From Bowmanella denitrificans (lineage in GTDB: Bacteria; Pseudomonadota; Gammaproteobacteria; Enterobacterales; Alteromonadaceae), in assembly GCF_002887595.1 (NCBI RefSeq), contig NZ_PEBU01000009.1, positions 2,589-66,588 of the forward strand: a stretch of 64,000 nucleotides of DNA, given 5' to 3'. The notes beneath the pieces were generated by a model. The model saw only the letters and a program-made list of their open reading frames with translations, searched no databases and had not been told where the DNA came from. A program made the position numbers and the translations under genes. Of this stretch, positions 1-17,217 are shown piece by piece. Each line of letters starts with the position of its first letter. The first letter of the stretch is position 1.

Positions 1-531
1 CAAGCCCTGGTACTGGAACATGAGGCGGTGGAAAAAGGCGACAAAGAAGCCATCCAGGAGCTGATTGACGATATTCACAGCCGCCACAAGAAGCAGTTAG
101 ACAGCGTTAGCCAGGAACTGCAGCACACCAAAGCCACGCTGGATTCGGTACGCAAAATCAACCAGGAAAAAAGCCAGCGCGAAGAGCAACTGCTAACCCA
201 GCTTGAGCAGAGCAAGTACCAGGCCGACCAGTGGCAGGCCAAAGTGCAGACCTGGCTGGATGAGGTACTAAAAAGCGTACACGGTGGCCTGCAGGGCCTG
301 GATATGCTGAACCAGCTACGCGAAACGGTAGAGATGGAAATTGCCACCGGGCAAATCAGCAGCGAAGCCGCCGAGCTGATGGTAGGCACGTATATGTTCA
401 GCATTGAACAGCTGGCCCAGGGCTATGCCGTACTGCTGCAGGACGCCATGCAGTTGCCCTATGCCGATATTCGCCGGGTGCCACAAGACGTACTGGCCGA
501 CCTGGCCGCTGCGGCCGACGACGCACAGTAA
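1..531 (+). CDS. Coiled-coil phage protein, 5' end cut by window edge
   Basis: The reading frame is open from base 1 to the stop at 529-531, so the gene starts left of the window; a GTG at 28 is only an internal alternative. At least 176 residues are visible. About residues 10-85 are rich in Glu, Gln, Lys and Ser with heptad-like spacing, which suggests a coiled coil. The C-terminal half is helical and hydrophobic-patterned and ends in an Ala/Asp-rich tail. It sits directly upstream of the MuA-type transposase gene, in the position where transposable phages carry early regulatory or DNA-binding genes. KfrA-like DNA-binding proteins have a comparable coiled coil, but the N-terminal DNA-binding part would be outside the window, so no function is assigned. 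Confidence 0.6.
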   Translation, partial: QALVLEHEAVEKGDKEAIQELIDDIHSRHKKQLDSVSQELQHTKATLDSVRKINQEKSQREEQLLTQLEQSKYQADQWQAKVQTWLDEVLKSVHGGLQGLDMLNQLRETVEMEIATGQISSEAAELMVGTYMFSIEQLAQGYAVLLQDAMQLPYADIRRVPQDVLADLAAAADDAQ

Positions 532-542
532 TGGAGGCAGCC

Positions 543-2315
543 ATGGGGATCAACCAAGTGGAACTGGATGTACTCAGGGCGCTGATTGCCCAGCTTGGCG
601 GTGCTAGGCACGGTGAAAAAGGCAAGATCCTCAAAGACGCTGCCGCCCTGTATGGCTGGAGCATGCCCACCCTGTACCGCAAACTGGAAGACATGGGCTG
701 GCGGAGCGGCCGCAAGCGTCGGGTAGACGCCGGGCAGTCGAGCGTAGACGACCAGACCATGACCGTGCTGGAAAGCCTGCGAGTGCAAAGCGTGCGTAAG
801 AACGGCAAGCTGACCATGCCCACCACGGTGGCCAGGGGGATTGCGATTAACAATGGCTACCAGGTAGACGTTACCCCCTCCACCCTGAACCGCCTGATGC
901 GCCGCCGCGGCACCAGCAACCAGGCGCTGCGTACCGACTCACCGCATACCCGTGTGCGCAGCCTGCACCCTAATCACGTGCACCAGGTGGACCCGTCGTT
1001 ATGCCTGGTGTATTACCTGGGTGACGGCAAGCAGTACATTATGGAAGCCGACCAGTTTTATAAAAACAAGCTGGAAAACTACGCCAAGGTCAAGCTGAAG
1101 TGCTGGCGCTATGTATTGGTTGACCATTACAGCGCAACCATGGCCGTGCGCTATTACGCCGCGGCGGGGGAAAACACCCGCAATCTGTTCGACTTTCTGT
1201 GTTTCGCCTGGCAGAAAGACAGCACCAAGGTGCTGCACGGCGTGCCCAAAATTCTGTACTGGGACAAGGGCAGCGCCAACACCAGCCCCGCCATTAAACA
1301 CTTTCTGGACCAGCTTGACGTACAGCACCTGACCCACGAAGCCGGGAAGGCGCGCGCCAAGGGCGCGGTGGAAGGGGCTAACAACCTGGTAGAAACCCAG
1401 TTTGAATGCCGCCTGAAGTTTGAACCGGTAGACAATGTGGACCAACTGAATGCCGCGGCCGCAACCTGGTGCCATGCCTATAACGCCAATTGCATTCCCG
1501 GCCAGGACACACGCCTGAGCCGCAAGGGCATGGCCACCCCGCTGGCCCGCTATGGCCTGTGGCAAACCATTCGCAAAGAACACCTGCGCTTACTGCCGAA
1601 TGAAGACATTTGCCGTGCACTGCTGACCAGCAAGCCCCAGGAGCGCACCGTGGCGGCTAACCTGACCATTAGTTTTCGGCACCCACATTTGGGTAAGTCG
1701 GCCGAATACAGCCTGCGTGATTGCGCTGGTGTACAGGTGGGCATGAAGGTATTGGTTGCGCCCCTGGTATACAGTGCGGCAGACATTCGGGTGGACATAA
1801 ACCTGGCCGATGGCAGCCACCAGGTGCACCACATTGGCCCGGAACAATTCGACAGCCTGTCGGGTATGCCTGTGGCAGGCCCGGTGTTTGGCGAAAACTA
1901 CGCGGCTGCTCCAGACACCGACGTGGAGCGCCGCAAAAAGGCCGCAGACAGAGCGGCGTACCCAGACCTGAACGACCAGGACATAGCCAAAGCCAAGGCT
2001 AAACAAAAGACCCCTTTCAATGGCCAGATAAAGGCCCACTCGTACCTGCAGGACGCGGCCAGCCAAACCCCTGCCTACATGCAGAAAACCGGCAGCCAGA
2101 TTGAACCCACAGCCATACCCAAGCCCCAGCAGCGCATGGTGTCGCGGGTGCAAATGAAAATGTGGCTGCTGGGTAAGCTGTTTCGCGATTTTACCGCCGA
2201 TGAACTGGCCTGGCTAAACAGCCTGGAAGACGTTGCCGAGCAAGACCTGGAAACCATTTTAAGCCAAATCCGCGACGGCGTGCCTGCTAAACCGGCACTG
2301 CGCGTGGTGAGTTAA
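543..2315 (+). CDS. Mu-type DDE transposase (MuA-like)
   Basis: This is the recombinase that cuts and joins the ends of a transposable phage. The N-terminal 60 residues hold a helix-turn-helix-like segment (GWSMPTLYRKLEDMGW), followed by an rve integrase core with a DDE triad: Asp in HQVDPS (about residue 150), Asp in YWDKGS (about 241) and Glu in AVEGANN (about 277). The last two are 36 positions apart, as in the D,D-35-E family. A Mu-transposase C-terminal region follows and ends near the interaction zone for MuB. I chose ATG 543 over ATG 531 because GGAGG lies five bases before it, giving 590 residues. It precedes the MuB-like gene by 11 bases, the classical A-B order. No truncation is visible. 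Confidence 0.93.
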   Translation: MGINQVELDVLRALIAQLGGARHGEKGKILKDAAALYGWSMPTLYRKLEDMGWRSGRKRRVDAGQSSVDDQTMTVLESLRVQSVRKNGKLTMPTTVARGIAINNGYQVDVTPSTLNRLMRRRGTSNQALRTDSPHTRVRSLHPNHVHQVDPSLCLVYYLGDGKQYIMEADQFYKNKLENYAKVKLKCWRYVLVDHYSATMAVRYYAAAGENTRNLFDFLCFAWQKDSTKVLHGVPKILYWDKGSANTSPAIKHFLDQLDVQHLTHEAGKARAKGAVEGANNLVETQFECRLKFEPVDNVDQLNAAAATWCHAYNANCIPGQDTRLSRKGMATPLARYGLWQTIRKEHLRLLPNEDICRALLTSKPQERTVAANLTISFRHPHLGKSAEYSLRDCAGVQVGMKVLVAPLVYSAADIRVDINLADGSHQVHHIGPEQFDSLSGMPVAGPVFGENYAAAPDTDVERRKKAADRAAYPDLNDQDIAKAKAKQKTPFNGQIKAHSYLQDAASQTPAYMQKTGSQIEPTAIPKPQQRMVSRVQMKMWLLGKLFRDFTADELAWLNSLEDVAEQDLETILSQIRDGVPAKPALRVVS

Positions 2316-2326
2316 GGAGCCGCCTT

Positions 2327-3565
2327 ATGTCGACACACACACCTTACTACCTGAACCATTGCCTGGCGAAGCACGGGTTGCAGCAACGTCACCTGGCAGA
2401 GGTGCTGCGAGCTAACGAGCAGCACCCGTTTGTGATGCACCACACCACGCTGAACAAGCTGTTACGTCGGCAGGAGTGGCCCAAAACCGTGCTAGCCCAT
2501 GCGGACGAATTTAAGGCGGTGGTACGCAACTTTTTGACCGCTAACCAGGTGCCGGAAGAAGACATAGCCCGTGCCTGGGAGGACGCGCCTGATGAAAAAA
2601 TTGTGCGCGTGCCAGCCAGTATGGTGCGCCCGAACCAACCTCGCGCCACGCGCGTGGCCCCCAACGACGTATTTAACCAACCGGAGCTAGAAATGCTGAC
2701 ACCCAAGGCAAGACAACACTTTCGCATTGCCCGCGACCCGTTTGTGAATGAGATCCATGGCCCGGACGACCTGTTCTTAAGCCCGCAGCAGCTGTATGCG
2801 CGTGAGAGCATGCTGAATGCCACGCTGTCCGGCACCATTATGGCGTTGGTTGCTGAGTCTGGTGCGGGCAAGTCACAAGTGAAGCGGGCGTTTTATCACC
2901 ACCTGTCGATTCATCATGACAAGGTGATTGTGGTGGAGCCGTATTGCCTGGACAAGGTAAAGCTGGATTCACAGCACATTCTGGCGGCCATGAAGCGCAT
3001 GCTGAAGATCAACATTGCCAAGCCTAACCAGGAAGATAACGAGGCACTGATCCACCAGGCCTTACAGGACCAGGCACGGCTAGGGTACCAGTTTGTGTTG
3101 GTGATTGAAGAAGCCCACCGGTTGCGCGACGACGTGCTGAAGTGGCTGAAAGTCATTGGCGAATGGGACAACGGTTACCGCAAATTGATGGCCATTATAT
3201 TGATTGGCCAGTCAGAACTGAAAGACAAGCTTAGCCCCCAGCAAACGCATATTCGCGAATTTACCCGCCGCTGCCAAATGATCACGTTATTCCCGCTGGC
3301 AGATTCATTGGAGCCGTACCTGCGGCATAAGTTTAGCCGCGTAGGCGGTGACTATGACCGTGTGTTGACGGCTGACGGCCTGGCGGCACTGCGTGAGCGG
3401 CTGTTTCACCGCCAGCAATACGGCATTGCCAACGGCTGCGATGTGATCGATATGAGCTACCCATTGACGGTGAACGCCTTTGTGGCGGCGGCCATGAATA
3501 TGGCTGCTCAGACCGGTGAAATGGTTAGCGCTGAGTTAATCAATGCCCTGAAAGAAAGCTTGTAA
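2327..3565 (+). CDS. MuB-like AAA ATPase, transposition target selection
   Basis: This 412-residue protein is the ATP-dependent partner of the transposase. In the Mu family, MuB coats target DNA, activates MuA strand transfer and confers target immunity. An N-terminal region of about 70 residues looks like a lambda-repressor-type HTH. The ATPase domain has Walker A AESGAGKS (residues 176-183) and a Walker B strand LVIEEAH near residue 260. The start has AAGGAG seven bases upstream. Order and spacing after the transposase gene match transposable phages; the next gene begins 10 bases after its stop. The fold could also be called an ExeA/TniB-like AAA protein, but the neighbours favour MuB. Confidence 0.9.
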   Translation: MSTHTPYYLNHCLAKHGLQQRHLAEVLRANEQHPFVMHHTTLNKLLRRQEWPKTVLAHADEFKAVVRNFLTANQVPEEDIARAWEDAPDEKIVRVPASMVRPNQPRATRVAPNDVFNQPELEMLTPKARQHFRIARDPFVNEIHGPDDLFLSPQQLYARESMLNATLSGTIMALVAESGAGKSQVKRAFYHHLSIHHDKVIVVEPYCLDKVKLDSQHILAAMKRMLKINIAKPNQEDNEALIHQALQDQARLGYQFVLVIEEAHRLRDDVLKWLKVIGEWDNGYRKLMAIILIGQSELKDKLSPQQTHIREFTRRCQMITLFPLADSLEPYLRHKFSRVGGDYDRVLTADGLAALRERLFHRQQYGIANGCDVIDMSYPLTVNAFVAAAMNMAAQTGEMVSAELINALKESL

Positions 3566-3575
3566 GGGGGCAGCG

Positions 3576-4262
3576 ATGAGCAGCGACAAGATTATAGACA
3601 AGATTAAAAAGTTGCTGGCGCTGGCCAAAAGCAGCAACCCGCACGAAGCGGCCGCAGCACTGAGCCGCGCCCAGAAACTGATGCAGCAGCACAGTATTGA
3701 CCAGCAGTCGGTGGCACTGAGCGACTGTGACCGGGTGAGCCACCTGCTGGACAGCGGCCGGGTGAACAGCTACGAGGCCGCGTTGGTAGATACCATAAAC
3801 CGGGCCTTTGGCGTGGAAGCGGTGTTTTCCAAGTCGTTCCTGCGCCAGGAATACTACGTGTACTTTCTGGGCATTAAGCCCCAGCCAGAACTGGCTAGAT
3901 ACTGTTTCAGTGTGCTGTACCGCCAGTTAAAAGATGCCCGCAGCGAGTATGTAGCCAACCAACCCAAACAATGCAAGCGCACAACCAAAACCCAGCGTGG
4001 CGATGCCTTTGCCTGGGGCTGGGTGGGTGAAGTGAAAGCCAGGGTGCAGGCCTTTGCCCTAACCGAAGAGCAGCAGGTGCTGATCCAGGAATACAAGGGT
4101 ATGAAGTACCCCAGCCTGCAGAGTAAAGACCCCCACGACAGCCTGAGCAAAAAAGGCGTCAAGCTGCGTGATGACGATTTCTACCAGGGCCGTAAAGCGG
4201 CCAAAAACGTACGCCTGGATCGCCCTGTGGGTGGCCGGGAAACAGCAAAACTAACCCGATAG
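3576..4262 (+). CDS. DUF2786 phage protein
   Basis: The first 40 residues match the DUF2786 pattern: a helical stretch with KIKKLLALA, then an Ala-rich helix containing AAALSRAQKLM. The remaining roughly 185 residues are basic, with charged helices and a Lys/Arg-rich C terminus, which suggests nucleic-acid association. The protein has 228 residues, an ATG preceded by GGGGGC, and lies between the MuB-like gene and a DUF3164 gene, as in many transposable phages of Vibrio, Shewanella and Pseudomonas. The biochemical role of DUF2786 is not established. In this setting it is an early gene, probably acting in replication-transposition or host takeover. Confidence 0.8.
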   Translation: MSSDKIIDKIKKLLALAKSSNPHEAAAALSRAQKLMQQHSIDQQSVALSDCDRVSHLLDSGRVNSYEAALVDTINRAFGVEAVFSKSFLRQEYYVYFLGIKPQPELARYCFSVLYRQLKDARSEYVANQPKQCKRTTKTQRGDAFAWGWVGEVKARVQAFALTEEQQVLIQEYKGMKYPSLQSKDPHDSLSKKGVKLRDDDFYQGRKAAKNVRLDRPVGGRETAKLTR

Positions 4263-4269
4263 GTGACCC

Positions 4270-4944
4270 ATGAATACCATTCAAATCCCGCCTGGCTACG
4301 TAATGAACGCAGAAGGCAACCTGATTAAGGAAGAAAACCTGAGTGTTCAGCAGCGCACGGAAGACTCACTGGTAAAAGCCTTGTGGCCACGTGCTAAGGC
4401 GCTGCATGACGCTATTGCGTGTTTTAAATACGACAGCATGAAAGCCCTTGAAGACGCTATTGAAAATATGATCCACGAGCACGGCATTAAAAAGTATGAG
4501 CGTATCCAGGGCAATGTGCAGTTCACCACGGTGGACGGCCAGTTCAGAGTGCAGCGGGCCATTGATAAGCAAATTGAAGTGGACAGCAGCATTGAAGTCG
4601 CCAGACAGAAGTTTGCCCTGTACCTGCAGGCCATTCAGGAAACGGCCGGTAAAGATGCCGGGGAGTTTCTGGATAACGCCTTTGACATGAAAGACGGCAA
4701 GGTCAACGTGGCCCGCCTGATCGACGTGTGCAACAAAGACATTAAACACCCCCTGTATCGCAGCGCTGTAGAAGCCCTGCGCAAAGCCATGTTTGTGTCT
4801 GGTACCAAAGCGTATCTGAGGTTCTACAAGCGCAACAAAGACAATGGCTGGGACCCCATGCCTTTGCAGTTCTCAAGCATTGAGCCACAGCCACCACAGG
4901 AGTTAGCTGATGACGAAGCCGAACAAGCTGCGACAACGGCGTAA
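4270..4944 (+). CDS. DUF3164 phage protein
   Basis: The 224-residue sequence fits DUF3164, a family found almost only in transposable phages and sometimes mislabelled in databases as a sulfate transporter. No membrane segment is present; the protein is soluble and mixed helix/strand. Recognisable parts are the N-terminal NAEGNLI motif, a helical region around residues 35-80, and a strand region (VQFTTVDGQFRVQRA) around 80-95. It begins 7 bases after DUF2786 with GGTGACCC upstream, so the two are probably co-transcribed. Function is unknown. Position in the early operon argues for a role in transposition or its control. Confidence 0.8.
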   Translation: MNTIQIPPGYVMNAEGNLIKEENLSVQQRTEDSLVKALWPRAKALHDAIACFKYDSMKALEDAIENMIHEHGIKKYERIQGNVQFTTVDGQFRVQRAIDKQIEVDSSIEVARQKFALYLQAIQETAGKDAGEFLDNAFDMKDGKVNVARLIDVCNKDIKHPLYRSAVEALRKAMFVSGTKAYLRFYKRNKDNGWDPMPLQFSSIEPQPPQELADDEAEQAATTA

Positions 4945-5017
4945 CCGTTGGCGGTTTTACCGCCCAACAAACCCAACCTAAACCCGGCGTAATGCCACAT
5001 TTAACGAGAGTAGACAC

Positions 5018-5290
5018 ATGAAGAAACAAGAACTTATTGACGCTATTGCCACCCGCTCTGACATCAGCAGAGCCACTGCGGCCCGCAGTTTGGATGCTGC
5101 AACACAGTTGTTTACGGAGGCACTGGCCAAGGGCGAAGAAGTAAGTTTGGCGGGCTTTGGCAGCTTTAAGGTAAAGGAGCGAGCCGCTCGCACCGGGCGC
5201 AACCCACAAACCGGTGAGGCCATTCAGATTGCAGCCAACCGCGCGGTGGTGTTTAAGCCTGCCAAAGCGCTGAAGGAAGCAGTGAACTAA
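5018..5290 (+). CDS. HU/IHF-family DNA-binding protein carried by the phage element
   Basis: This is a complete 90-residue bacterial HU-type histone-like protein. It has the helical dimerisation half (KQELIDAIA at the N terminus), the LAGFGSFKV strand, and the DNA-clasping arm with GRNPQTGEAI and a Pro at the intercalating position, ending in FKPAKALKEAVN. HU bends DNA and is needed with MuA for assembly of the Mu transpososome, so a phage-encoded copy within the early operon may supply that cofactor. Some transposable phages of marine Gammaproteobacteria carry such a gene. The 73-base gap from DUF3164 leaves room for its own promoter. Whether it forms heterodimers with host HU cannot be told. 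Confidence 0.93.
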   Translation: MKKQELIDAIATRSDISRATAARSLDAATQLFTEALAKGEEVSLAGFGSFKVKERAARTGRNPQTGEAIQIAANRAVVFKPAKALKEAVN

Positions 5291-5335
5291 GCAACCTGCC
5301 CAGGCATAGCCTGGGCTATTTCGGGGGATTCGGTT

Positions 5336-6571
5336 ATGCAAATTGAAATCCAGCAACAGCAGCAGCAAGACGTACTTAAGTACCTGGAAGGTGCAGGTGA
5401 GCCCGCCAGCCTACAGGATATAGTTGAATGCACCATGCTTGAGAAAGGCGAGGTGTTAAACGCGTTAAGGGCACTGGCCGAACAGAATAAGGCGCACCGT
5501 ATTGGCGACAAGTATCGCCCAGTCACTGAGCAAGAGTCGGACCCAACAAGCGGAGCCAACACGCCTGGGTGGTCGCCTGAAATGGCGGTACTGCGCACAC
5601 TGGGTAGCAGCATCAAGCGCCTGACGCTGAGCGGTATTGGTATTAAGGCGGGACTACCGACTTCAGCACTAAAGCATTTGCTGACAGATTTGATCCGCCA
5701 AAAAGGATTGGTACTGAAATTTGGCGAGTATTACCACCTGTCACCTGGTGGGGTGAACTGGTTGCGGGACCAGGGAGTGGAGGTACCGCTACAAGTGCAG
5801 GACGCAGTAAGAACTGCAGACATGTCGATGACCGCAAGCATCGTAGCTGACGGCCGCGAGACTGCGCAGCGCTTAGAACAGAAGGCAGCCATGCAGAATG
5901 GCAGTAAGGTTCTTGCTGCGGAACCGGATGAAGGGTACCTGGATGCAGAAAATAGTGATGACACGCCTTGTGCTGACTCAGACGCCCAGAGCCCACCGAA
6001 GAAACCCACCACGCTGACCAAGGCCAAGCAGCAAGACCTGACGATTAGTGTTTTGGTGGAACTGACCAGCGCTGGCAGTTTGTTGTATCCCAAGCAGTTA
6101 GCGGCCGCTCTTGGTTGTGCGGCTAAAGACCTTTCCATACCGCTCCAGCAGTTAAACAATCTGGGTTACCTGGTACGCGGTATTAATGGCCCATATGGAT
6201 TAAGTTTGGCGGGCATTGATTATTTGCAGTCAGTTAAACCTGATCTGATTGTTGCGGACAAAGTGACGAAAAGAGCAAAGCGCTTTGCCGCAGAGCCAAA
6301 GAATAAGCCCAGGACCGCTGCCCCTAAGACCAGCAAAGCCAATGACCAGGCATTGGCCAGTATGTTCGATGATTTGTTACAGGAACCGGCCACTAGCGAC
6401 CTGCAAGCCATTAAACACGAGCTATGCGAGTTTGACTTAAAAAGCCAGGTAACCGGCGCAGCCGAGAAAGCGACGATTGTTCAGCATTTGGCCAGGCATT
6501 TTCCTGAACATGGTGAAGTGCACCGTCACCTGACCGAGACTGCCGCCTTTATGGCGCGTTTAGGGGGCTGA
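5336..6571 (+). CDS. Phage protein with three winged-helix-like modules
   Basis: No named family was recognised for this 411-residue protein. By eye it has three repeats of a winged-helix-like layout: residues about 9-60 (LKYLEGAGEPASLQDIVE onward), about 80-140 (AVLRTLGS, a helix pair, then a hairpin ending in YYHLSPGG) and about 235-305 (SVLVELTSAG, helices, then a wing ending in GLSLAGIDYL). The linkers are Ala/Glu-rich. The C-terminal 70 residues after a Lys/Arg/Pro-rich stretch are helical. This layout suggests a DNA-binding regulator or replication adaptor. GGGGGA precedes the ATG by seven bases, and the gene ends one base before gemA. Alternative: a phage replication-initiation accessory protein. 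Confidence 0.6.
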   Translation: MQIEIQQQQQQDVLKYLEGAGEPASLQDIVECTMLEKGEVLNALRALAEQNKAHRIGDKYRPVTEQESDPTSGANTPGWSPEMAVLRTLGSSIKRLTLSGIGIKAGLPTSALKHLLTDLIRQKGLVLKFGEYYHLSPGGVNWLRDQGVEVPLQVQDAVRTADMSMTASIVADGRETAQRLEQKAAMQNGSKVLAAEPDEGYLDAENSDDTPCADSDAQSPPKKPTTLTKAKQQDLTISVLVELTSAGSLLYPKQLAAALGCAAKDLSIPLQQLNNLGYLVRGINGPYGLSLAGIDYLQSVKPDLIVADKVTKRAKRFAAEPKNKPRTAAPKTSKANDQALASMFDDLLQEPATSDLQAIKHELCEFDLKSQVTGAAEKATIVQHLARHFPEHGEVHRHLTETAAFMARLGG

Positions 6572-6572
6572 C

Positions 6573-7238
6573 ATGGCGACCATTAACTTATTCAACCTGC
6601 CTGACAGCAAGCAAAAACAACTGATTGCTATTGCGGCCCAGGAAGCCGGTTTTGACACCCAGGATAAAGACCCTGGCAGCGAGTATCGGCAGACTGTGCT
6701 GCGGTCGTTAACCGGTAAAACGTCTACGTCGCAAATGACCCGCAATGACCGTGTAAAGGTGCTGCAGCACTTTATTCAGCACGGCTTTAAGTTGACGGCC
6801 AAGGGCAACTATAAACCCAATCCAACTTGGTTACGCAAGCTACTGAGCCTGTGGGCCACTATGCACCAGCAGGGCTTTATTCGCGAACCGGGGTTTGCTG
6901 CCCTGGAGCGGTGGGCGCAGAAGCAACTGACAGAGTACTGCAAAGCGGTAAGCAAGCCGGTACCCAGCAAGCTGGACTGGATGAACGACTACAGCAGCAT
7001 ACTGATTGAGTGCCTGAAGAAGTATCACCACCGGGCATTAATTGAGGCGGTACCGCGCAGGTTTGAACACTTTGTGAGTTCGGTGCTGACCAAATCGGCC
7101 AAGCATGCGAGCGATGGCGACCTGACCGAGATTCAATTGCTGTTTGAGCGCGTGCATGACATTCACCGTGCGGCTTACCCGGTGTGTCAGCAGGTGTTGG
7201 ATACCATTGACGGCCTGCAGCGCAGATACGGAGGGTAA
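6573..7238 (+). CDS. gemA: GemA-type phage regulatory protein (DUF1018)
   Basis: The 221-residue product resembles Mu Gp16/GemA, the DUF1018 family. Typical elements are an N-terminal helical region with a conserved charged stretch, the segment MTRNDRVKVLQHF around residue 50, and the DUF1018 hallmark of a Trp-rich helix bundle (LRKLLSLWATMHQQGFI near residues 90-105). In Mu, GemA alters host gene expression and DNA supercoiling control during the middle phase. It sits directly before the mor-like gene, as in Mu, where gemA-gemB precede mor. Its ATG is one base past the preceding stop, so translation is probably coupled. Confidence 0.8.
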   Translation: MATINLFNLPDSKQKQLIAIAAQEAGFDTQDKDPGSEYRQTVLRSLTGKTSTSQMTRNDRVKVLQHFIQHGFKLTAKGNYKPNPTWLRKLLSLWATMHQQGFIREPGFAALERWAQKQLTEYCKAVSKPVPSKLDWMNDYSSILIECLKKYHHRALIEAVPRRFEHFVSSVLTKSAKHASDGDLTEIQLLFERVHDIHRAAYPVCQQVLDTIDGLQRRYGG

Positions 7239-10219: not shown

Positions 10220-10310
10220 TGCCCATCCCAATCCTTCCCATTCCATCCCACTCTATCCCTGTATTTTTCTCACCCTTCCCTTTGATATTTCTCATCTCTC
10301 TTCATGTAAG

Positions 10311-10387
10311 GCAGTTGGCAGTTGGCAGTTGGCAGTTGGCAGTTGGCAGTTGGCAGTTGGCAGTTGGCAGTTGGCAGTTGGCAGTTT
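10311..10387 (+). repeat. Tandem 7-bp repeat, unit GCAGTTG, about 11 copies
   Basis: Ten perfect copies of GCAGTTG run from 10311 to 10380, followed by an eleventh that differs only in its last base (10381-10387). Single copies and short runs of the same motif, sometimes inverted (CCAACTG), reappear at 10586-10640. This is a short-unit microsatellite, expected to vary in copy number by slippage. It contains no reading frame of interest and lies between the phage-like block and the asnB operon. Confidence 0.95.
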
Positions 10388-10465
10388 AGTCTGACCCGCA
10401 CTCCTGCTCTGTCAACGGATTTCTGCTAACTGCCGACTGATTACTGACCACTTAGCTTACATCCC

Positions 10466-10681: not shown

Positions 10682-12691
10682 TTAAACTACCCAACCTAAT
10701 TGCTGAGCCCGGTCATAGGCCAGCTGGCTGATATCCTGTTCAATAAAATGATGATGCAGCAGCATCACCCCCAGCACATGATTTAACACGGCATCCACCT
10801 GCACTTTGTCAGCCGCAGGGGTGGCCGGGTCTTCCTGACGACGCATCAGCTCATCCACAAAGGCCGTATCAATTAACCCTGCCTGCTTAAGCTTTGCCGG
10901 GGAAGCATAGCGTTCAAACAAGCCTTTCAGCTTATTCCATTTCTTCTCGTCGGTATGCGCCGGCGGGGCCATAAAGGCGAATTTCTGCCGCTCATATAAT
11001 ACGGTTGGCAATAGGCCCTTCATAGCTTCGCGCAGTACGTACTTTTCCTTACTGCCGCGAATACGCAGCTCCGGCGGAATAGTGGCAGCATATTCCGCCA
11101 AATGATGGTCCAAAAAGGCCGGGCGGGCTTCCATGGAATTCGCCATATCGACCCTGTCGCCGCCCCAAGTCAGAATCTGCCCTTCCAGCATGGTTTTAAT
11201 CCACACATACTGGGCCTTGTCCAGAGGGTGGCGGTCTTTCAGAAAGTCCTCGTCCAGACGATCGGCAATGGCTGCACCAGGTTCATATTCGGCCAGTTCA
11301 TCACGAATGGCCGGATGCAGCAGTTGCCTGGCCAGATCCGAACATCCCAGCCAGGGCTGCAGACAGCTTGGTGTAAAGCCTACTTTGGCATTGATACGCT
11401 CAGATACGTACTCGTCTTTAGGCAGCATCGCGCCCTGAAACAGTTTGTTTGACTCCATCAAGGTGCGCTGCCATTCCTCGGCCTGTTCCGTGTCCAGTCC
11501 TTCCATGCCATGCAGGAACATGTCTTTACGAAACGCCGGATAACCAGCAAACAGCTCATCAGACCCCTCACCGGTCAGCACCACTTTATAGTCCACATGC
11601 CGTACATGCTGACTCATCATCAGCTTGGCCACCGCCAGGGTATTGTAAATAGTGCGCTCGGTATGCCAGATGGTACGGGCAAAATTGTCGTAAAGCAGGT
11701 CGGCATTGAGTTTCAGAATATCCTGCTCGGCACCTGTGGCCCTGGCCATTTCGGTGGCAATAGCGGCCTCATCATATTCATCATTGTCAAAACTGATGGT
11801 AAAAGCGCGAATAGGATCCTGACTGGCGGCAGACGCCAGACCTAAAATAGAGCATGAATCAATGCCGCCGGATAAATAACAGCCCACCGGCACATCGGCA
11901 TTCAGACGTAATTGCACCGCCTCAAGCAGATGGCTGCGTACGCCCTGAATATAGCTTTCATCGTCCAGCCTGGGTCTGGCATCCGGAGTGGGAAAATCCA
12001 TATCCCAGTATTTACTGGTTTCAATCACAAAGCGGCCATCCCGGCGCTGAATCTTCAGCATATGACCTGGCTCCACCTGGTGCACACCTTTGAAGGCTGT
12101 GGTGCCTGGCACCATCACCTGGATCAGTTGGTGAAATAGCCCCTGGCTGTCAAACTCCGGCTTAACATCCGGGTGTGCCAGCACGGTTTTAACTTCGGAG
12201 CCATACACTAACTGGCCGTTAACTTCTGTCCAGTACAACGGTTTTATGCCAAAGCGGTCACGCACCAGATACAGGCAATCCTGCTGCTCGTCGAACAGGG
12301 AAAAGGCAAACTCACCACGCAGGTGCTTGAGGGTTTCAGCCATACCCAGTCGCAGGTAAAGATGCGGGACAATCTCAGAATCACTTTTGGTTTCGAAATG
12401 CTCGCCCAGAGCAGTTAACTCACCGCGCAGGCGCTGATAATCATAAAATTCGCCATTGTGGGCGAAAATAATCTGGCCACCATGCAGGAAAAACGGCTGA
12501 CGGCCACGGTTTTCATTTAAATCAATAATAGACAGGCGGGCATGGCTCATCCCCATGCCAACACCGGCCGGGTTGCAATAGCCGTAATTGTCCGGCCCAC
12601 GGTGGTGCATAATGGCGGCCATATTAACCAACACCTGCGAATCCACCTCCTGCTCAGGCCGGGCGGCGAAAATACCTGCTATTCCACACAT
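10682..12691 (-). CDS. asnB: Asparagine synthase (glutamine-hydrolysing), AsnB type
   Basis: The 669-residue protein is a class II glutamine amidotransferase fused to an ATP-dependent synthetase domain. Cys2 after the initiator Met is the glutaminase nucleophile, with MHHRGPDNYG and SHARLSIIDL in the N-terminal domain. The C-terminal domain has the PP-loop YLSGGIDS near residue 270. It is longer than E. coli AsnB (554), as in the AsnO/AsnH-like and amidotransferase-1 groups that amidate other carboxylates. It is the last gene of a minus-strand operon with a carbamoyltransferase-like gene, a symporter and an exported protein, separated from them by a palindrome-rich spacer. It may make asparagine or amidate the product of its neighbours; the sequence does not decide. 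Confidence 0.88.
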   Translation of the reverse strand: MCGIAGIFAARPEQEVDSQVLVNMAAIMHHRGPDNYGYCNPAGVGMGMSHARLSIIDLNENRGRQPFFLHGGQIIFAHNGEFYDYQRLRGELTALGEHFETKSDSEIVPHLYLRLGMAETLKHLRGEFAFSLFDEQQDCLYLVRDRFGIKPLYWTEVNGQLVYGSEVKTVLAHPDVKPEFDSQGLFHQLIQVMVPGTTAFKGVHQVEPGHMLKIQRRDGRFVIETSKYWDMDFPTPDARPRLDDESYIQGVRSHLLEAVQLRLNADVPVGCYLSGGIDSCSILGLASAASQDPIRAFTISFDNDEYDEAAIATEMARATGAEQDILKLNADLLYDNFARTIWHTERTIYNTLAVAKLMMSQHVRHVDYKVVLTGEGSDELFAGYPAFRKDMFLHGMEGLDTEQAEEWQRTLMESNKLFQGAMLPKDEYVSERINAKVGFTPSCLQPWLGCSDLARQLLHPAIRDELAEYEPGAAIADRLDEDFLKDRHPLDKAQYVWIKTMLEGQILTWGGDRVDMANSMEARPAFLDHHLAEYAATIPPELRIRGSKEKYVLREAMKGLLPTVLYERQKFAFMAPPAHTDEKKWNKLKGLFERYASPAKLKQAGLIDTAFVDELMRRQEDPATPAADKVQVDAVLNHVLGVMLLHHHFIEQDISQLAYDRAQQLGWVV

Positions 12692-12735
12692 AAATACTCC
12701 TGTTTGTTCTGCATTAGCGGGGCTTCAACGTAGAC

Positions 12736-12838
12736 GCGATACAGGATGTATCGCCATTTTCAGTCCCCTGAAAATGCGAGCGAAGCAAAACCACGCTTTT
12801 GCGTAGCGACTCAGGACCGCAGGCAGGAAGCCGCAGGT
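12736..12838. repeat. Compound palindromic spacer inside the carbamoyltransferase-asnB operon
   Basis: Several hairpin-forming units follow one another: GCGATACA/TGTATCGC (12736-12754, loop GGA), ATTTTCAG/CTGAAAAT (12756-12775, loop four bases), a GCAAAA/TTTTGC pair just after, and a GGACC/GGTCC pair enclosing a CCGCAGG direct repeat up to about 12838. Such chains of imperfect palindromes are typical of dispersed intergenic elements (REP/BIME-like), but placed between two co-oriented genes they could also set the asnB transcript level by termination or mRNA processing. Confidence 0.7.
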
Positions 12839-12847
12839 CCGAATCAA

Positions 12848-13921
12848 CTAGATCACATCCAACACCAGCTCAGCCCGCTTCACCAGGCAGGTCAGCAGCG
12901 CCATACGCAAAAACACCGCCCCCCTGGCCTGGGAGAAATACCAGTTGTGATGGGTGTTATCCAAATCGGTGCTGAGTTCTTCGCCACGGGCCAGCGGATG
13001 CAGAATAATGGCTTCGGGTTTTAAGGGCGACGCGGCATCCAAATGGTACTTTTTGCCATACTGTTTAAAGGAGTTACCTTCCCAGGAGATGGCATTGATA
13101 TACACCACATCGGCCTGCGGCAGCACCTCGTCCAGATCATCGGCGGTCTGTACCTGCAAACCGAACTCCTCCAGTTGTTCTAACTGGCCTTCGGCGAACA
13201 TGGCCTTGCAGCTTTTATCGTTAACTACTGTTACTGTGGAAAACACCTCAGGGAAATAGCACAGCAGCTTTAATAAACTGCGTACCGTGCGCATCTTGGC
13301 TGGCAACCCCACCAGGCACAGATTGAGCGGCTCGCCCGGGTTGTCGGTGACCAGATCCGGGCGCCATTTAAAAATGGTGTACAAGTCTGCCAATGCCTGG
13401 GTGGGATGTTCATCGGTGCCGTTACCGGCATTAATAATCGGAATGCGCAAGGCATCCATCATATCCCGCACCGACGCTTCCTTAGAGTCACGCAGTACCA
13501 CGCAATCACCGTAGTTATTAAACATTTCCGCCACGTCCCGCAGGGATTCGCCCTTGGCAATTCCGGTAGTGGAGCGGTCGGTAATAGACATAATATCGCC
13601 GCCCAGGCGATGCCAGGCACTTTCAAACGACAAACGCGTGCGGGTACTGGGCTCATAAAAAGCCGAGATCAGGATCTGGCCGTTCAGGGAACTGCTGAAC
13701 CTGTCTGGGTTGGCCTCATATTTGGCGGCCAGGCGAAAGAGTTGCAGCAAGGTATCGCGGTCAAATTGATCCGACGAATAAATATGCTGATTAGACAGCT
13801 TAGCCAGGTGATCGCCTTCCTCAACGATAGCGCGCAGCAACTTTTTCGGATGGGCGTCGCCATGCACGTCAGGACGGCTGCGTTCAAACTGTATAACCTG
13901 TTCAAGGTTGGGATCTACCAT
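12848..13921 (-). CDS. Aspartate-carbamoyltransferase-like enzyme, probably altered substrate
   Basis: The 357-residue protein has the ATCase/OTCase fold with the carbamoyl-phosphate motif STRTRLSFE (residues 92-100), KGESLRD (about 123-129), HPTQALADL (172-180) and the late motif HPLARGEEL. It departs from true PyrB at aspartate-site and catalytic positions: the usual MRHP is LRDS (about 143-146), the usual YMTRxQxER loop is replaced by YINAISWEG, and HPLPR is HPLAR. Carbamoyl-phosphate binding seems kept, while the amine acceptor probably differs from aspartate. Its start overlaps the 40-residue membrane peptide by 7 bases, so it is co-translated with the symporter operon rather than with pyrimidine genes. 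It could still be a second, weak ATCase. Confidence 0.8.
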   Translation of the reverse strand: MVDPNLEQVIQFERSRPDVHGDAHPKKLLRAIVEEGDHLAKLSNQHIYSSDQFDRDTLLQLFRLAAKYEANPDRFSSSLNGQILISAFYEPSTRTRLSFESAWHRLGGDIMSITDRSTTGIAKGESLRDVAEMFNNYGDCVVLRDSKEASVRDMMDALRIPIINAGNGTDEHPTQALADLYTIFKWRPDLVTDNPGEPLNLCLVGLPAKMRTVRSLLKLLCYFPEVFSTVTVVNDKSCKAMFAEGQLEQLEEFGLQVQTADDLDEVLPQADVVYINAISWEGNSFKQYGKKYHLDAASPLKPEAIILHPLARGEELSTDLDNTHHNWYFSQARGAVFLRMALLTCLVKRAELVLDVI

Positions 13922-14037
13922 AGGTTCTTATCCTTGAGATCGCGCTGATAAAGCAGCAATAAAATAACCGGTGCCAGAGCACTACCCACCAGGGCTGCCC
14001 ACACCAATATGGCTAACAGGGATTCACTCAGATACAT
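13915..14037 (-). CDS. 40-residue membrane peptide, probable symporter accessory subunit
   Basis: A 40-residue frame (MYLSESLLAILVWAAL at the start) has one membrane helix of about 23 residues and a charged C terminus (YQRDLKDKNLW). A strong AAGGAGG lies 9 bases before the ATG. It overlaps the symporter stop by 14 bases and the carbamoyltransferase start by 7, so all three are translated in series. Several sodium-symporter families have tiny single-helix partners encoded next to them, so an accessory role is likely but unproven. The longer frame starting at 14142 is inside the symporter and is rejected. Confidence 0.65.
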   Translation of the reverse strand: MYLSESLLAILVWAALVGSALAPVILLLLYQRDLKDKNLW

Positions 14038-15454
14038 CTCTGGCCTCCTTAAAGGTTTGCCAGTCGAATTTGCCAGGAGCCAGATAGACACCAGCCAAGC
14101 AGATAAGCAGCGACACCAATGCACTACTGATGGCCGCCACATAAAAGCCCACTACGAAGTATAGGGTCAGACCACTGACGATGCCTAAGGCCATCGCCGC
14201 ACTGGCAAAACGCCCGGTCAGAGCAGGATGATATAAGCCAAACAGAATTGGCCAGATAGCGGATGCCACAAAGGCACCGGTGAAATTCAACAATGCGCCC
14301 AGGGTCGCCACTTTCGGCAGACATAGCAGCCAGGTCAGCAGCCCCAGGCCAATCACGATACGTTTATTGGCCTTGAGCAAAGTATCGCTGTCTGCCTTGG
14401 GATTAAGCAGGCGTTTGTAGCCGTCCTGCGTGATTAAATCCGACGTAGCGGCCAGCAGGCTGTCCATGCTGGACGCCAGGGCCGAAAATACCACCACAAA
14501 CACAAATACCGCACCAATACTGCCCAGCAACCTGGCCGCCACCAAAGGGCCCACCATATCGGCACTGGGCGGTACAATCCCTAAAGACAGCGCGGCCAGC
14601 GCCACAAAGCCGGTGACAATAGGAATAGGCAACCATAACAGGCCACCGGTCAGAAAGGCTTTTTTCCCCACTCCACCTTTAAAGGCAAAGGCCCTCGACC
14701 ACCAGACATTAGAATGGAATATCTCACCAATACCGAAAAAGATGTTGTTAAACAGAAACATAATCGCAGCTGGGAAGGCCAGATTGAGGAGCTCTGGCTG
14801 CAGCTCGCTGACATTTTGGTGAATCTGGCTGATGCCCACTTTGTCGATACAAAACCAGGCAATGATCACCACCCCAACCAAAATCAGAATGGACTGCACA
14901 AAGTCGGTGGCAATCACCGCTTTTAAGCCACCCAGCAAGGTATAAGCAACACAGATCAGCAAGATTGCCGTCATGCCCGTGTGGTAGTCCAGGTCACTTA
15001 AAGAGGAAAGCAAGATGCCACCGGCCATGCCCAGACTGACCAGCCAGCCCATGGCATAAAACAACGAGATAAGCATAAACACGGCCCAGGCGGTGGGGCC
15101 AAAACGAGTGCGAATAAAGTCGCCGCTGGTGAAGCCGTGCGGCATCAGAGATTTGATACGCGCCGCCATAGGCGCAAACAGAATCAAGCCCAGGGCGGCC
15201 ATGCTATAGCCAATCATGCCCCAGATACCGAACTGGTAAGCCAACTGCGGTGCCACCAGGGTAGTGTTGCTGGTGATCCAGGTCGCCATGGCGGTCGCGG
15301 TAGCAAAAGCAAACCCCACGTTACGCCCGGCCAGGGCGTAATCATCAATACTGCGATTACCCCGCCCCAGATACCAACCAAAAGCTACCCACAACAGGCC
15401 GAAGCCGATCAGGATGGCCAGCGCCAATCCCGAATCCAACTGTGCATCAAGCAT
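14024..15454 (-). CDS. Sodium:solute symporter family transporter
   Basis: The 476-residue protein is a multi-spanning (about 13 helices) SSS-family carrier. Typical motifs are the N-terminal YLGRGNRSIDDYALAGRN after helix 1, ATWITSNTTLV in helix 2, the MPHGFTSGDF loop and YTLLGGLKAVIATDFVQ. These support a sodium-coupled uptake system for a small organic molecule. I chose ATG 15454, which overlaps the preceding stop by 8 bases, over a TTG at 15481. Substrate is unknown. The divergent N-carbamoyl amidohydrolase and co-transcribed carbamoyltransferase point to a ureido, hydantoin, amide or amino-acid-like compound. The 40-residue peptide follows directly. Confidence 0.88.
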   Translation of the reverse strand: MLDAQLDSGLALAILIGFGLLWVAFGWYLGRGNRSIDDYALAGRNVGFAFATATAMATWITSNTTLVAPQLAYQFGIWGMIGYSMAALGLILFAPMAARIKSLMPHGFTSGDFIRTRFGPTAWAVFMLISLFYAMGWLVSLGMAGGILLSSLSDLDYHTGMTAILLICVAYTLLGGLKAVIATDFVQSILILVGVVIIAWFCIDKVGISQIHQNVSELQPELLNLAFPAAIMFLFNNIFFGIGEIFHSNVWWSRAFAFKGGVGKKAFLTGGLLWLPIPIVTGFVALAALSLGIVPPSADMVGPLVAARLLGSIGAVFVFVVVFSALASSMDSLLAATSDLITQDGYKRLLNPKADSDTLLKANKRIVIGLGLLTWLLCLPKVATLGALLNFTGAFVASAIWPILFGLYHPALTGRFASAAMALGIVSGLTLYFVVGFYVAAISSALVSLLICLAGVYLAPGKFDWQTFKEARDVSE

Positions 15455-15875
15455 AGTGGCCGTCACGCTCCCTGCGAACAAAACTGAGTAAGATCCCCAG
15501 CAACATTAAAAATGCCGCCAGGCCCAATACAAACAGCGCCAAAGCCTGGTAAAGGGAACGGTGTGTTACCTGCACCCGTGCCAGCTCCACCGGTGAGTGT
15601 TCACCGCTGCTGTCAATCAGCCTGGCCAGGTATTCACCATTGGCGAAACCAGACAAGGTTGCCTGGCGCTGCCCAGTGACATCAAAGGTCTGCACAGCAA
15701 CTGGCGCTGGCTTTCCTTCTACCATCTGAAAAATCTCCAGACTGTCATAGGCACTGCTGTGGTTTTCAAACTCCAGTACAAAGTAACCTTCCCTGGATTC
15801 CAGGGTTTGCGCTGCATGAACTGGGGTACAGATCATCAACAACAAGCCCAGGAGAAGCGTTGGGATCGTCCTCAT
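15447..15875 (-). CDS. Membrane-anchored periplasmic protein, unknown
   Basis: The 142-residue product has a signal peptide (TIPTLLLGLLLMICTPVHA, residues 3-21), a beta-rich periplasmic domain of about 85 residues and a C-terminal membrane helix (ALALFVLGLAAFLMLLGILL) followed by a basic tail. It is probably a type I membrane protein exposing a small Ig- or carbohydrate-fold-like domain. The ATG at 15875 has AGGAGA seven bases upstream and is preferred to one at 15896. It is first in the operon with the symporter, so it may help substrate capture or transporter assembly. No family was recognised. Confidence 0.7.
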   Translation of the reverse strand: MRTIPTLLLGLLLMICTPVHAAQTLESREGYFVLEFENHSSAYDSLEIFQMVEGKPAPVAVQTFDVTGQRQATLSGFANGEYLARLIDSSGEHSPVELARVQVTHRSLYQALALFVLGLAAFLMLLGILLSFVRRERDGHYA

Positions 15876-15969
15876 GACGTCTCCTCTGCTTAACATTTAA
15901 AGTCCATGCTAACATTTATTTGTACTCTAAACAAAATGCCGAAGATTCACTCAATTCAAAGGAGTTGTT

Positions 15970-17217
15970 ATGAAGCAAGGGTTACAAACCGAACTTAGCC
16001 GTCTGCAAAATGATTTACTGGAATTGTCACATATAGGCTATGACCCCGAGTCGAAAGGTGTGTTTCGCTTAGGTTTCACCGAAGCCGATATGCAAGCCCG
16101 ACGCTGGCTGATTAAAAAATTTGAAGACGAAGGATTTTATGCCCGTATGGACAGTGCCGGTAATGTGATTGGCAGTATGCAGGCAGATGCCAACAAACCG
16201 GTGGTGGCGATGGGTTCCCACATAGATTCCGTGCCGGCCGGTGGTATGTTCGATGGCACCCTGGGTGTGTTGGCGGGACTGGAATGTATGCGGGTACTCA
16301 GAGATAGCGGTCTGGACTATCAGTACCCGCTGGAAGTCTATGCCTTTGCCGAGGAAGAAGGTCGTTTCGGCGGTATGATGGGAGTGCAGGCCATTACGGG
16401 CGAACTCACCCCTCAATGGCTGGAGAACGCACACGACGCCAGTCATATCTACCTTAAGGACGAAATGGCCAACTGCGGGCTGAATGCTTTTGACGCCTTA
16501 ACAGCGCGGCTTGATCCTAAACATTTTCGCGCCTTTTTAGAGCTGCATATTGAGCAAGGGCCGGTGCTGGAGCGAATCGGCAAGCCTATCGGCGTGGTAG
16601 AGGCCATCTCCGGTGTATATAAGTGGCTGGTCAGACTAATTGGTAAAGCCAATCACGCCGGCACCGCCCCGATGGATATGCGTAGTGATGCCTTTATGGG
16701 CCTGGCCGATTTTGCCCACGAAATCCCGCGTATTATCAATGAAGAAGGTTCAGACAAAAGCCGCTTGACCGTAGGGCGGGTGGAATTGAAACCCGGCTAT
16801 GCTCATACGGTACCGGGCGAGGCCGAATTTACCCTGGTAGGCCGCGATACCGACCCGCAAACCATGCGTAATCTAGCCGATGCCTGTCGCCGGGTGCTGT
16901 CCAGTATTGCCCGCAAACATAATCTGATGTTTGAGTTTGAACAGATGAGCTGGCTGGAGCCGCAGGCCATGTCTGACGAGGTTATCCAGGCATTTTGTCA
17001 GCAGGCCGAGCGTATGGAGTTGGATTATCAGGTCATGCCCAGTGGTGCCGGACACGACGCCCAGTATATGGCCAGAATTACCCCAACCGGTATGATCTTT
17101 GTACCCAGTGTAGGGGGTATTAGCCATGCCCCGGACGAATGGACCCATTGGCAAGACGTGCACACCGGCGCAAACTTGCTGCTACAGACTGCGCTTAAAT
17201 ACGCTCAGGGCACATAG
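15970..17217 (+). CDS. M20-family N-carbamoyl amidohydrolase (allantoate/ureidopropionase type)
   Basis: The 415-residue enzyme belongs to the Zn-dependent hydantoinase/carbamoylase family, which cleaves N-carbamoyl groups to release CO2, ammonia and an amine or amino acid. Metal-ligand motifs are GSHIDSVPAGGMFDG (about 77-91), EEEGRFGG (about 128-135) and LHIEQGPVLE (about 192-201); the C-terminal family motif SGAGHDAQ is near 357. The RBS is AAAGGAG. It is divergent from the symporter-carbamoyltransferase operon with about 94 bases between the two starts, so they probably share control. Candidates for the substrate are N-carbamoyl-amino acids, N-carbamoyl-beta-alanine or allantoate; no other gene of allantoin or pyrimidine breakdown is nearby. 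Confidence 0.87.
   Translation: MKQGLQTELSRLQNDLLELSHIGYDPESKGVFRLGFTEADMQARRWLIKKFEDEGFYARMDSAGNVIGSMQADANKPVVAMGSHIDSVPAGGMFDGTLGVLAGLECMRVLRDSGLDYQYPLEVYAFAEEEGRFGGMMGVQAITGELTPQWLENAHDASHIYLKDEMANCGLNAFDALTARLDPKHFRAFLELHIEQGPVLERIGKPIGVVEAISGVYKWLVRLIGKANHAGTAPMDMRSDAFMGLADFAHEIPRIINEEGSDKSRLTVGRVELKPGYAHTVPGEAEFTLVGRDTDPQTMRNLADACRRVLSSIARKHNLMFEFEQMSWLEPQAMSDEVIQAFCQQAERMELDYQVMPSGAGHDAQYMARITPTGMIFVPSVGGISHAPDEWTHWQDVHTGANLLLQTALKYAQGT

Follow-up and report, generated by a model that had tools for sequence, protein, structure and literature searches.

Carbamoylglutamine amide (CGA) was reportedly isolated by Galinski and Oren in 1991 from Ectothiorhodospira marismortui. This glutamine-derived ureido-amide solute is traced to E. 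marismortui in two papers (PMC1224877, PMC3857566), one review lists it as coming from a single organism, and another source speaks more generally of purple sulfur bacteria (PMC7824335). In the open-access passages searched, reviews mention the solute and no biosynthesis genes for CGA are named. The nearest comparable pathway is the asnO-ngg route (TIGR03104) to N-acetylglutaminylglutamine amide (NAGGN), also a glutamine-derived neutral osmolyte, to which an AsnB homologue adds the terminal amide; in Pseudomonas its operon has a MarR repressor and a clustered hydrolase (PMC8070244). We describe here a gene cluster in a 64,000-nucleotide stretch of Bowmanella denitrificans (contig NZ_PEBU01000009.1; the whole stretch is called the window) that encodes an aspartate transcarbamylase (ATCase)-like enzyme, an AsnB-like amidotransferase, a sodium:solute symporter of the SSS family and an M20 hydrolase. 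From sequence and genomic context we infer that this cluster and its relatives probably serve the synthesis, turnover and uptake of CGA. The proposed system differs from that of NAGGN in its N-cap, which would be a carbamoyl group placed by the transcarbamylase, whereas Ngg makes an acetyl-dipeptide, and in an AsnB that belongs to a separate clade.

An alignment of 59 subfamily members with 17 PyrB sequences, numbered as in Escherichia coli ATCase via a phmmer alignment, was used to examine the active site of the transcarbamylase. The carbamoyl-phosphate residues S52, T53, R54, T55, R105 and H134 are present in 59/59 members and Q137 in 58/59, with the motif STRT in 59/59 and HPTQ in 58/59. 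K84 and R167 are likewise intact in 59/59, while R229 (replaced by A, S or T) and Q231 (A, S, V or L) are gone from all 59. Furthermore, P268 is alanine, so that HPLPR reads HPLAR in 59/59, and the histidine of the RHP motif is D, E, S or N. All of the numbered positions are intact in 17/17 PyrB sequences. In ATCase, R229 and Q231 contact the beta-carboxyl of aspartate, and R167 and K84 its alpha-carboxyl (PMC4581275). With the first pair lost and the second kept, the acceptor should be an alpha-amino acid whose alpha-carboxyl is free and whose side chain is not acidic, and the pattern points to a neutral one, such as glutamine. N276 and W280, invariant in the subfamily and absent in PyrB, are candidate contacts to the side-chain amide. 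Because the acceptor would need its free alpha-carboxyl, carbamoylation should precede amidation. The initial annotation had proposed a non-PyrB transcarbamylase that keeps STRT and HPTQ and has lost the RHP histidine, TRxQxER and HPLPR; these observations hold across the alignment, and the altered acceptor specificity drawn from them is well in line with the residues. Its further claim, that aspartate specificity is removed, stands for the beta-carboxyl contacts, not for the alpha-carboxyl contacts, which are kept.

Profile and tree comparisons place the enzyme outside PyrB, as had been supposed. It shares with PyrB the fold, the carbamoyl-phosphate site, R167 and K84, and differs in lacking RxQxER, in reading HPLA in place of HPLP and in having an AsnB neighbour. 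Against the PyrB model TIGR00670 the window protein scores 203.8 bits, below the cut-off of 236.95. The SxRT and HPxQ motifs of the transcarbamylase superfamily are present, and HxLP is altered by the change to HPLA inside the motif. A quick-method tree of 80 rows was built after 113 cluster sequences had been cut to 58 plus that of the window, each less than 84% identical to those kept. The cluster sequences and three divergent paralogues share one side of a branch (support 100, length 3.6 changes per site), with the 17 PyrB sequences and a single ArgF on the other; the ArgF row and one paralogue form long branches, the program gives a warning about long branches meeting, and the paralogues may sit within or beside the cluster group. 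A PyrB paralogue was rejected on this separation and on the loss of R229 and Q231. The predicted structural model (mean pLDDT 75) matches ATCases with a Foldseek probability of 1.00; because its confidence is middling, no pocket docking is argued from it. The three divergent paralogues (L064, L065 and L066, within L100-L102) are 39-41% identical to the window enzyme. They have lost most of STRT and, in 2/3, the histidine of HPTQ, no cluster AsnB lies within the stretch fetched, and they may possibly lack carbamoyl transfer activity.

The AsnB-like partner scores 423.7 bits against TIGR01536 (cut-off 267.1). Comparisons were made on 50 pairs from the tree set, those with an AsnB match over 560 amino acids. 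Cys2 and the pyrophosphate loop SGGIDS are retained in 50/50 partners, and glutamine-dependent amidation is therefore expected. In a tree made by the same quick method, with a similar long-branch warning, the cluster partners fall on one side of a branch with support 99, and ten NAGGN AsnO sequences lie outside this clade together with the other homologues of the window genome. Transcarbamylase and AsnB distances correlate over the 50 pairs (r = 0.67; 0/2000 permutations as high), which fits co-inheritance of the two enzymes and would also fit plain vertical descent. NAGGN synthesis was rejected on the separate clade and on a score of 292.5 bits against the AsnO model TIGR03104, whose cut-off is 570.1. 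Lactam-forming AsnB-type cyclases are not known to have Cys2, and a role of this kind was set aside because the residue is kept in 50/50.

The pairing of the two genes is conserved. A scan of named genomes, whose first query sequence came from the family of E. marismortui, yielded at least 575 confirmed stretches; neighbourhoods were counted in those 63 of the best 80 loci whose flanks reach 7 kb or more upstream and 4 kb or more downstream, the 17 short-flanked loci being set apart. In 62/63 well-flanked loci an AsnB gene is found no more than 6 kb from the transcarbamylase gene and in the same orientation. Overall it was found in 77/80; two of the other three loci are cut off by the end of their contig, and the remaining one is that of Thiorhodospira sibirica. 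The SSS symporter is present in 53/63 well-flanked loci, a weak homologue of an exported protein (at least 30 bits) in 49/63, M20 on either strand in 48/63, and an isochorismatase-fold amidohydrolase (PF00857) in 42/63. MarR-like genes, called by a loose criterion, occur in 36/63 and stand first in all eight Ectothiorhodospira clusters and in most of those of Thioalkalivibrio; the Pfam checks covered L109 and, elsewhere, L148. The usual order is M20, isochorismatase-fold hydrolase, SSS, transcarbamylase, AsnB, and eight spirochaete-type loci have the same content as SSS, transcarbamylase, M20, isochorismatase-fold hydrolase, AsnB. The same genes in another order argue for a functional bond over inherited synteny. 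The two conditions that the initial annotation had named as refuting, a place within PyrB and a lack of conservation in other genomes, both fail, and its proposal that the system handles an N-carbamoyl compound to which AsnB would add an amide is supported at the level of inference. The proposal was incomplete: it missed the likely biosynthetic, osmolyte nature of the system, CGA as the fitting metabolite, and the second hydrolase that the clusters of many relatives hold beside M20. As a separate observation, the same eight spirochaete-type loci (L137, L138, L146, L153, L157, L159, L174, L178) carry a PII-like gene upstream of the symporter, an assignment for which three of the eight were tested against NCBIfam and scored below the cut-offs.

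In the proposed pathway, the transcarbamylase would carbamoylate L-glutamine at its alpha-amino group, with carbamoyl phosphate as the donor. Using ATP, and taking the amide nitrogen from a second glutamine, the AsnB-like enzyme would then convert the alpha-carboxyl into a carboxamide, as AsnO does for NAGGN. Both charges would be masked, giving a neutral solute. When osmolarity falls, glutamine would be regained through two hydrolases: the isochorismatase-fold enzyme of many relatives' clusters would take off the amide, and M20 would take off the carbamoyl group. The symporter and a 40-residue partner would take up the solute or a relative of it with sodium. The match of two modifications with two synthetic enzymes and two hydrolases was counted in favour of CGA.

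Both candidate enzymes are encoded in the genome of E. marismortui, the first source of CGA. E. marismortui strain EG-1 is DSM 4180T (PMC6548819), the DSM 4180 genome is FOUO00000000 (PMC8877833, PMC10224512), and we infer that the 1991 CGA work used this strain. Its locus L109 (NZ_FOUO01000006.1, E. mobilis/marismortui DSM 4180), whose reverse complement contains locus L083 letter for letter, encodes MarR, M20, the isochorismatase-fold hydrolase, the transcarbamylase and AsnB, all in one direction. The transcarbamylase, AsnB and M20 proteins are 59%, 62% and 51% identical to those of the window. The genome holds three OTCace_N genes: ArgF (SMG/HCLP), PyrB (RxQxER) and the cluster transcarbamylase. 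The last is thus the only further candidate of this superfamily for N-carbamoylation in E. marismortui. The window genome similarly has three, the cluster gene and, elsewhere, PyrB (RxQxER, HPLP) and ArgF (SMG).

The subfamily occurs in 14/147 genomes of the relatives set (13/146 without the window's own) and in 23/369 genomes of the class (22/368 without it), two of 25 positive genomes (G308, G417) with only divergent paralogues not being counted as carriers. Identity inside the subfamily is 56-90%, against at most 41% for the other transcarbamylases among the matches listed; chance was dismissed because the subfamily recurs across genomes at identities so far above the others. In the GTDB family of Ectothiorhodospira the gene is found in 41/47 genomes, including 38/38 of those with a completeness of 90% or more and a contamination of 5% or less. 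One of the 41 (G520, L224:8647-9740) has the gene split between two overlapping frames, through either natural decay or a sequencing error, and was counted unrepaired. The best 80 loci include Ectothiorhodospira, Thiorhodospira, Thioalkalivibrio, Thiohalobacter and Thiohalophilus, as well as Kangiella, Aliikangiella, Idiomarina, Aliidiomarina, Pseudidiomarina, uncultured Gammaproteobacteria and Spirochaetota. These groups are mostly marine, halophilic or soda-lake organisms. The Ectothiorhodospiraceae are themselves described as a salty-habitat group (PMC8877833).

Gene context is consistent with a role in osmotic adaptation. A sucrose synthase gene (upstream, in the opposite direction) and a fructokinase-like gene (downstream, several kb away in two) flank the cluster in 8/8 Ectothiorhodospira loci (L103-L107, L109, L110, L136), which suggests a solute-metabolism island; these calls rest on similarity to typed proteins of L080, of which the fructokinase was below its cut-off. 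L140 also has both flanking genes. Sucrose is named among bacterial solutes (PMC7824335). L080, L081, L105 and L136 carry MscS-like channel genes beyond the downstream end of AsnB, with L080 and L105 checked and L081 called by resemblance. T. sibirica is described as having no annotated osmotic-stress genes, with CGA among the candidate solutes named (PMC7824335). Both enzymes are present in this organism, its AsnB being 83% identical to that of E. marismortui and grouping with the cluster partners in the AsnB tree. A second AsnB homologue in T. sibirica (L188) groups with the AsnO sequences (fork support 63), and this organism may therefore make NAGGN as well. Furthermore, NAGGN asnO is positively associated with the cluster (9/11 against 55/132, p = 0.012) in a 143-genome sample whose membership among the 369 was read from genome labels and whose genomes are not independent.

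Several observations weigh against assigning the cluster to CGA. Raman spectra of E. marismortui extracts showed betaine and no possible CGA signal, in a paper that calls CGA a minor solute and for which no CGA Raman reference spectrum existed (PMC3857566). Since 41/47 genomes of the family carry the transcarbamylase, its presence in the source strain says little, and the weight rests on the chemistry. E. marismortui also has several Asn_synthase homologues, so that the AsnB assignment depends on adjacency and clade, and the scan ranking favours the Ectothiorhodospira family because the first query came from it. The two genes of T. sibirica are unlinked, with AsnB elsewhere in the genome. Thioalkalivibrio carries the cluster, yet its reported solutes are betaine as the main one and sucrose as a minor one in some strains (PMC9062515). 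The cluster and ectoine synthase are not associated (2/23 carriers against 48/346 other genomes, p = 0.75), and an inverse relation to ectoine synthesis was not found; a nine-genome search for ectoine synthase gave no match, controls included, and the class-wide search matched 50/369 genomes and none of 14 named controls. Among the well-flanked loci, the isochorismatase-fold hydrolase is absent nearby in 21/63 and M20 in 15/63. The former was not found in the window genome at E 1e-10, and across this genome and 13 cluster-bearing relatives it is present but unlinked in three. In one of these three, from the window's genus (G004, L220:7292-8945), the isochorismatase-type frame shares 8 bases with a carbamate kinase gene, a possible sign of catabolic use in some lineages.

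The residues of the transcarbamylase show only that the acceptor would have an alpha-carboxyl and no acidic side chain; side-chain length is unreadable from them. This leaves room for a close CGA analogue, made by the same reactions on another neutral amino acid (e.g. asparagine) or in reverse order on an amino acid amide. Such a product is unlikely: CGA is the sole ureido-amide solute met in the literature searched and comes from a cluster-bearing strain, and R167 and K84, kept in 59/59, argue for a free alpha-carboxyl at carbamoylation. A catabolic system, which would import an N-carbamoyl or amide compound and break it down as a source of nitrogen or energy, with the transcarbamylase running in reverse to carbamoyl phosphate, would account for the symporter and two hydrolases of many clusters and for the gene overlap in G004. 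It is improbable given the ATP-consuming AsnB that accompanies the transcarbamylase in 62/63 loci, and the M20 hydrolase would make the reverse reaction redundant. In addition, the cluster is not accompanied by an SSS symporter in the eight Ectothiorhodospira loci, and no open reading frame above 27.6 bits to the G004 carbamate kinase was found in the fetched flanks of 80 named and 36 other loci. An altered ATCase of pyrimidine synthesis or a ureidoglycine transcarbamylase (UGTCase) of purine degradation, to which the fold, a sequence closest to ATCase and M20 scores on allantoate amidohydrolase models might point, is barely credible. R229 and Q231 are lost, the tree separates the protein from PyrB, the genome encodes a PyrB elsewhere, and the adjoining AsnB has no part in either pathway. 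The hallmark of UGTCase is H(T/S)LP (PMC4581275), where the cluster enzyme has HPLA. UGTCase, compared by this published motif and rejected on it, otherwise resembles the cluster enzyme in belonging to the ATCase branch and in its changed acceptor loop.

The accessory proteins fit CGA turnover and uptake to differing degrees. The M20 enzyme, proposed to remove the carbamoyl group in turnover, has as its next best model ErtE (NF058540, N-carbamyl-L-glutamate amidohydrolase), likewise an M20 hydrolase of an N-carbamoyl amino acid; cluster M20 proteins score 357.4 and 386.1 bits, below the curated cut-off of 520. H83, D94, E128, E129, H192 and H385, which we take to be functional residues, are each kept in at least 97% of 57 rows. 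For the isochorismatase-fold hydrolase, the nearest named models are biuret hydrolase and RutB, which act on ureido or amide substrates and share its fold and conserved Asp, Lys and Cys; three proteins tested score 61-82 bits against a biuret hydrolase cut-off of 370. Its D52, K157 and C190, presumably catalytic, are each kept in at least 97% of 53 rows. The SSS symporter, proposed to import the solute, is followed by a peptide ending in Trp and mostly 39-42 residues long in 55/60 SSS-bearing loci of the best 80, and this membrane peptide is likely a small subunit of the symporter. The exported protein gave a single-sequence model of low confidence, with an N-terminal helix, strands and a long C-terminal helix, which was too weak to be used for a structure search.

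The six genes of the cluster in the window (Table 1) and their overlaps are as the initial annotation had stated. The minus-strand genes are transcribed in the order exported protein, SSS symporter, 40-residue peptide, transcarbamylase and AsnB, with overlaps of 8 (15447-15454), 14 (14024-14037) and 7 bases (13915-13921) and a gap of 156 bases before the downstream asnB; the M20 gene is divergent. Positions 531-7238, left of the cluster, hold on the opposite strand Mu-type transposable phage-like genes (transposase phrog_310, DNA transposition protein phrog_296) and further phrogs of unknown function. The gap between these and asnB contains a short tandem repeat (10270-10430), one frame of which reads as repeated QLAVGSW.

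Table 1. Genes of the cluster in the window (coordinates in window positions).
Feature	Coordinates	Strand	Profile matches and remarks
AsnB-like glutamine-dependent amidotransferase	10682-12691	-	PF00733; TIGR01536 over cut-off
ATCase-like transcarbamylase	12848-13921	-	PF02729/PF00185; below NCBIfam cut-offs for PyrB and ArgF
40-residue membrane peptide	13915-14037	-	overlaps symporter and transcarbamylase genes
SSS-family sodium:solute symporter	14024-15454	-	PF00474 over cut-off; TIGR00813 below cut-off
Exported/anchored protein, C-terminal membrane helix	15447-15896	-	no Pfam or NCBIfam match
M20 N-carbamoyl amidohydrolase	15970-17217	+	NF006771 and TIGR01879 over cut-off

Taken as a CGA locus, the cluster would serve a compatible solute and give the transcarbamylase superfamily a new acceptor specificity, for which the alignment offers a residue-level reason. 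For a compatible solute of 1991, apparently without genes, there would now be two candidate enzymes and a full pathway open to testing. A class of proteins that look like 'aspartate carbamoyltransferase' probably has another function, and the cluster would serve as a genome marker predicting CGA in many organisms, including T. sibirica. The chances are about even that CGA is widespread in marine and soda-lake Gammaproteobacteria and in Spirochaetota, made by a new glutamine transcarbamylase and its new AsnB-type partner, imported through an SSS symporter of its own that has a 40-residue subunit, and recycled as a nitrogen store. If so, saline waters would have in CGA a nitrogen-rich currency that has gone unrecognised.

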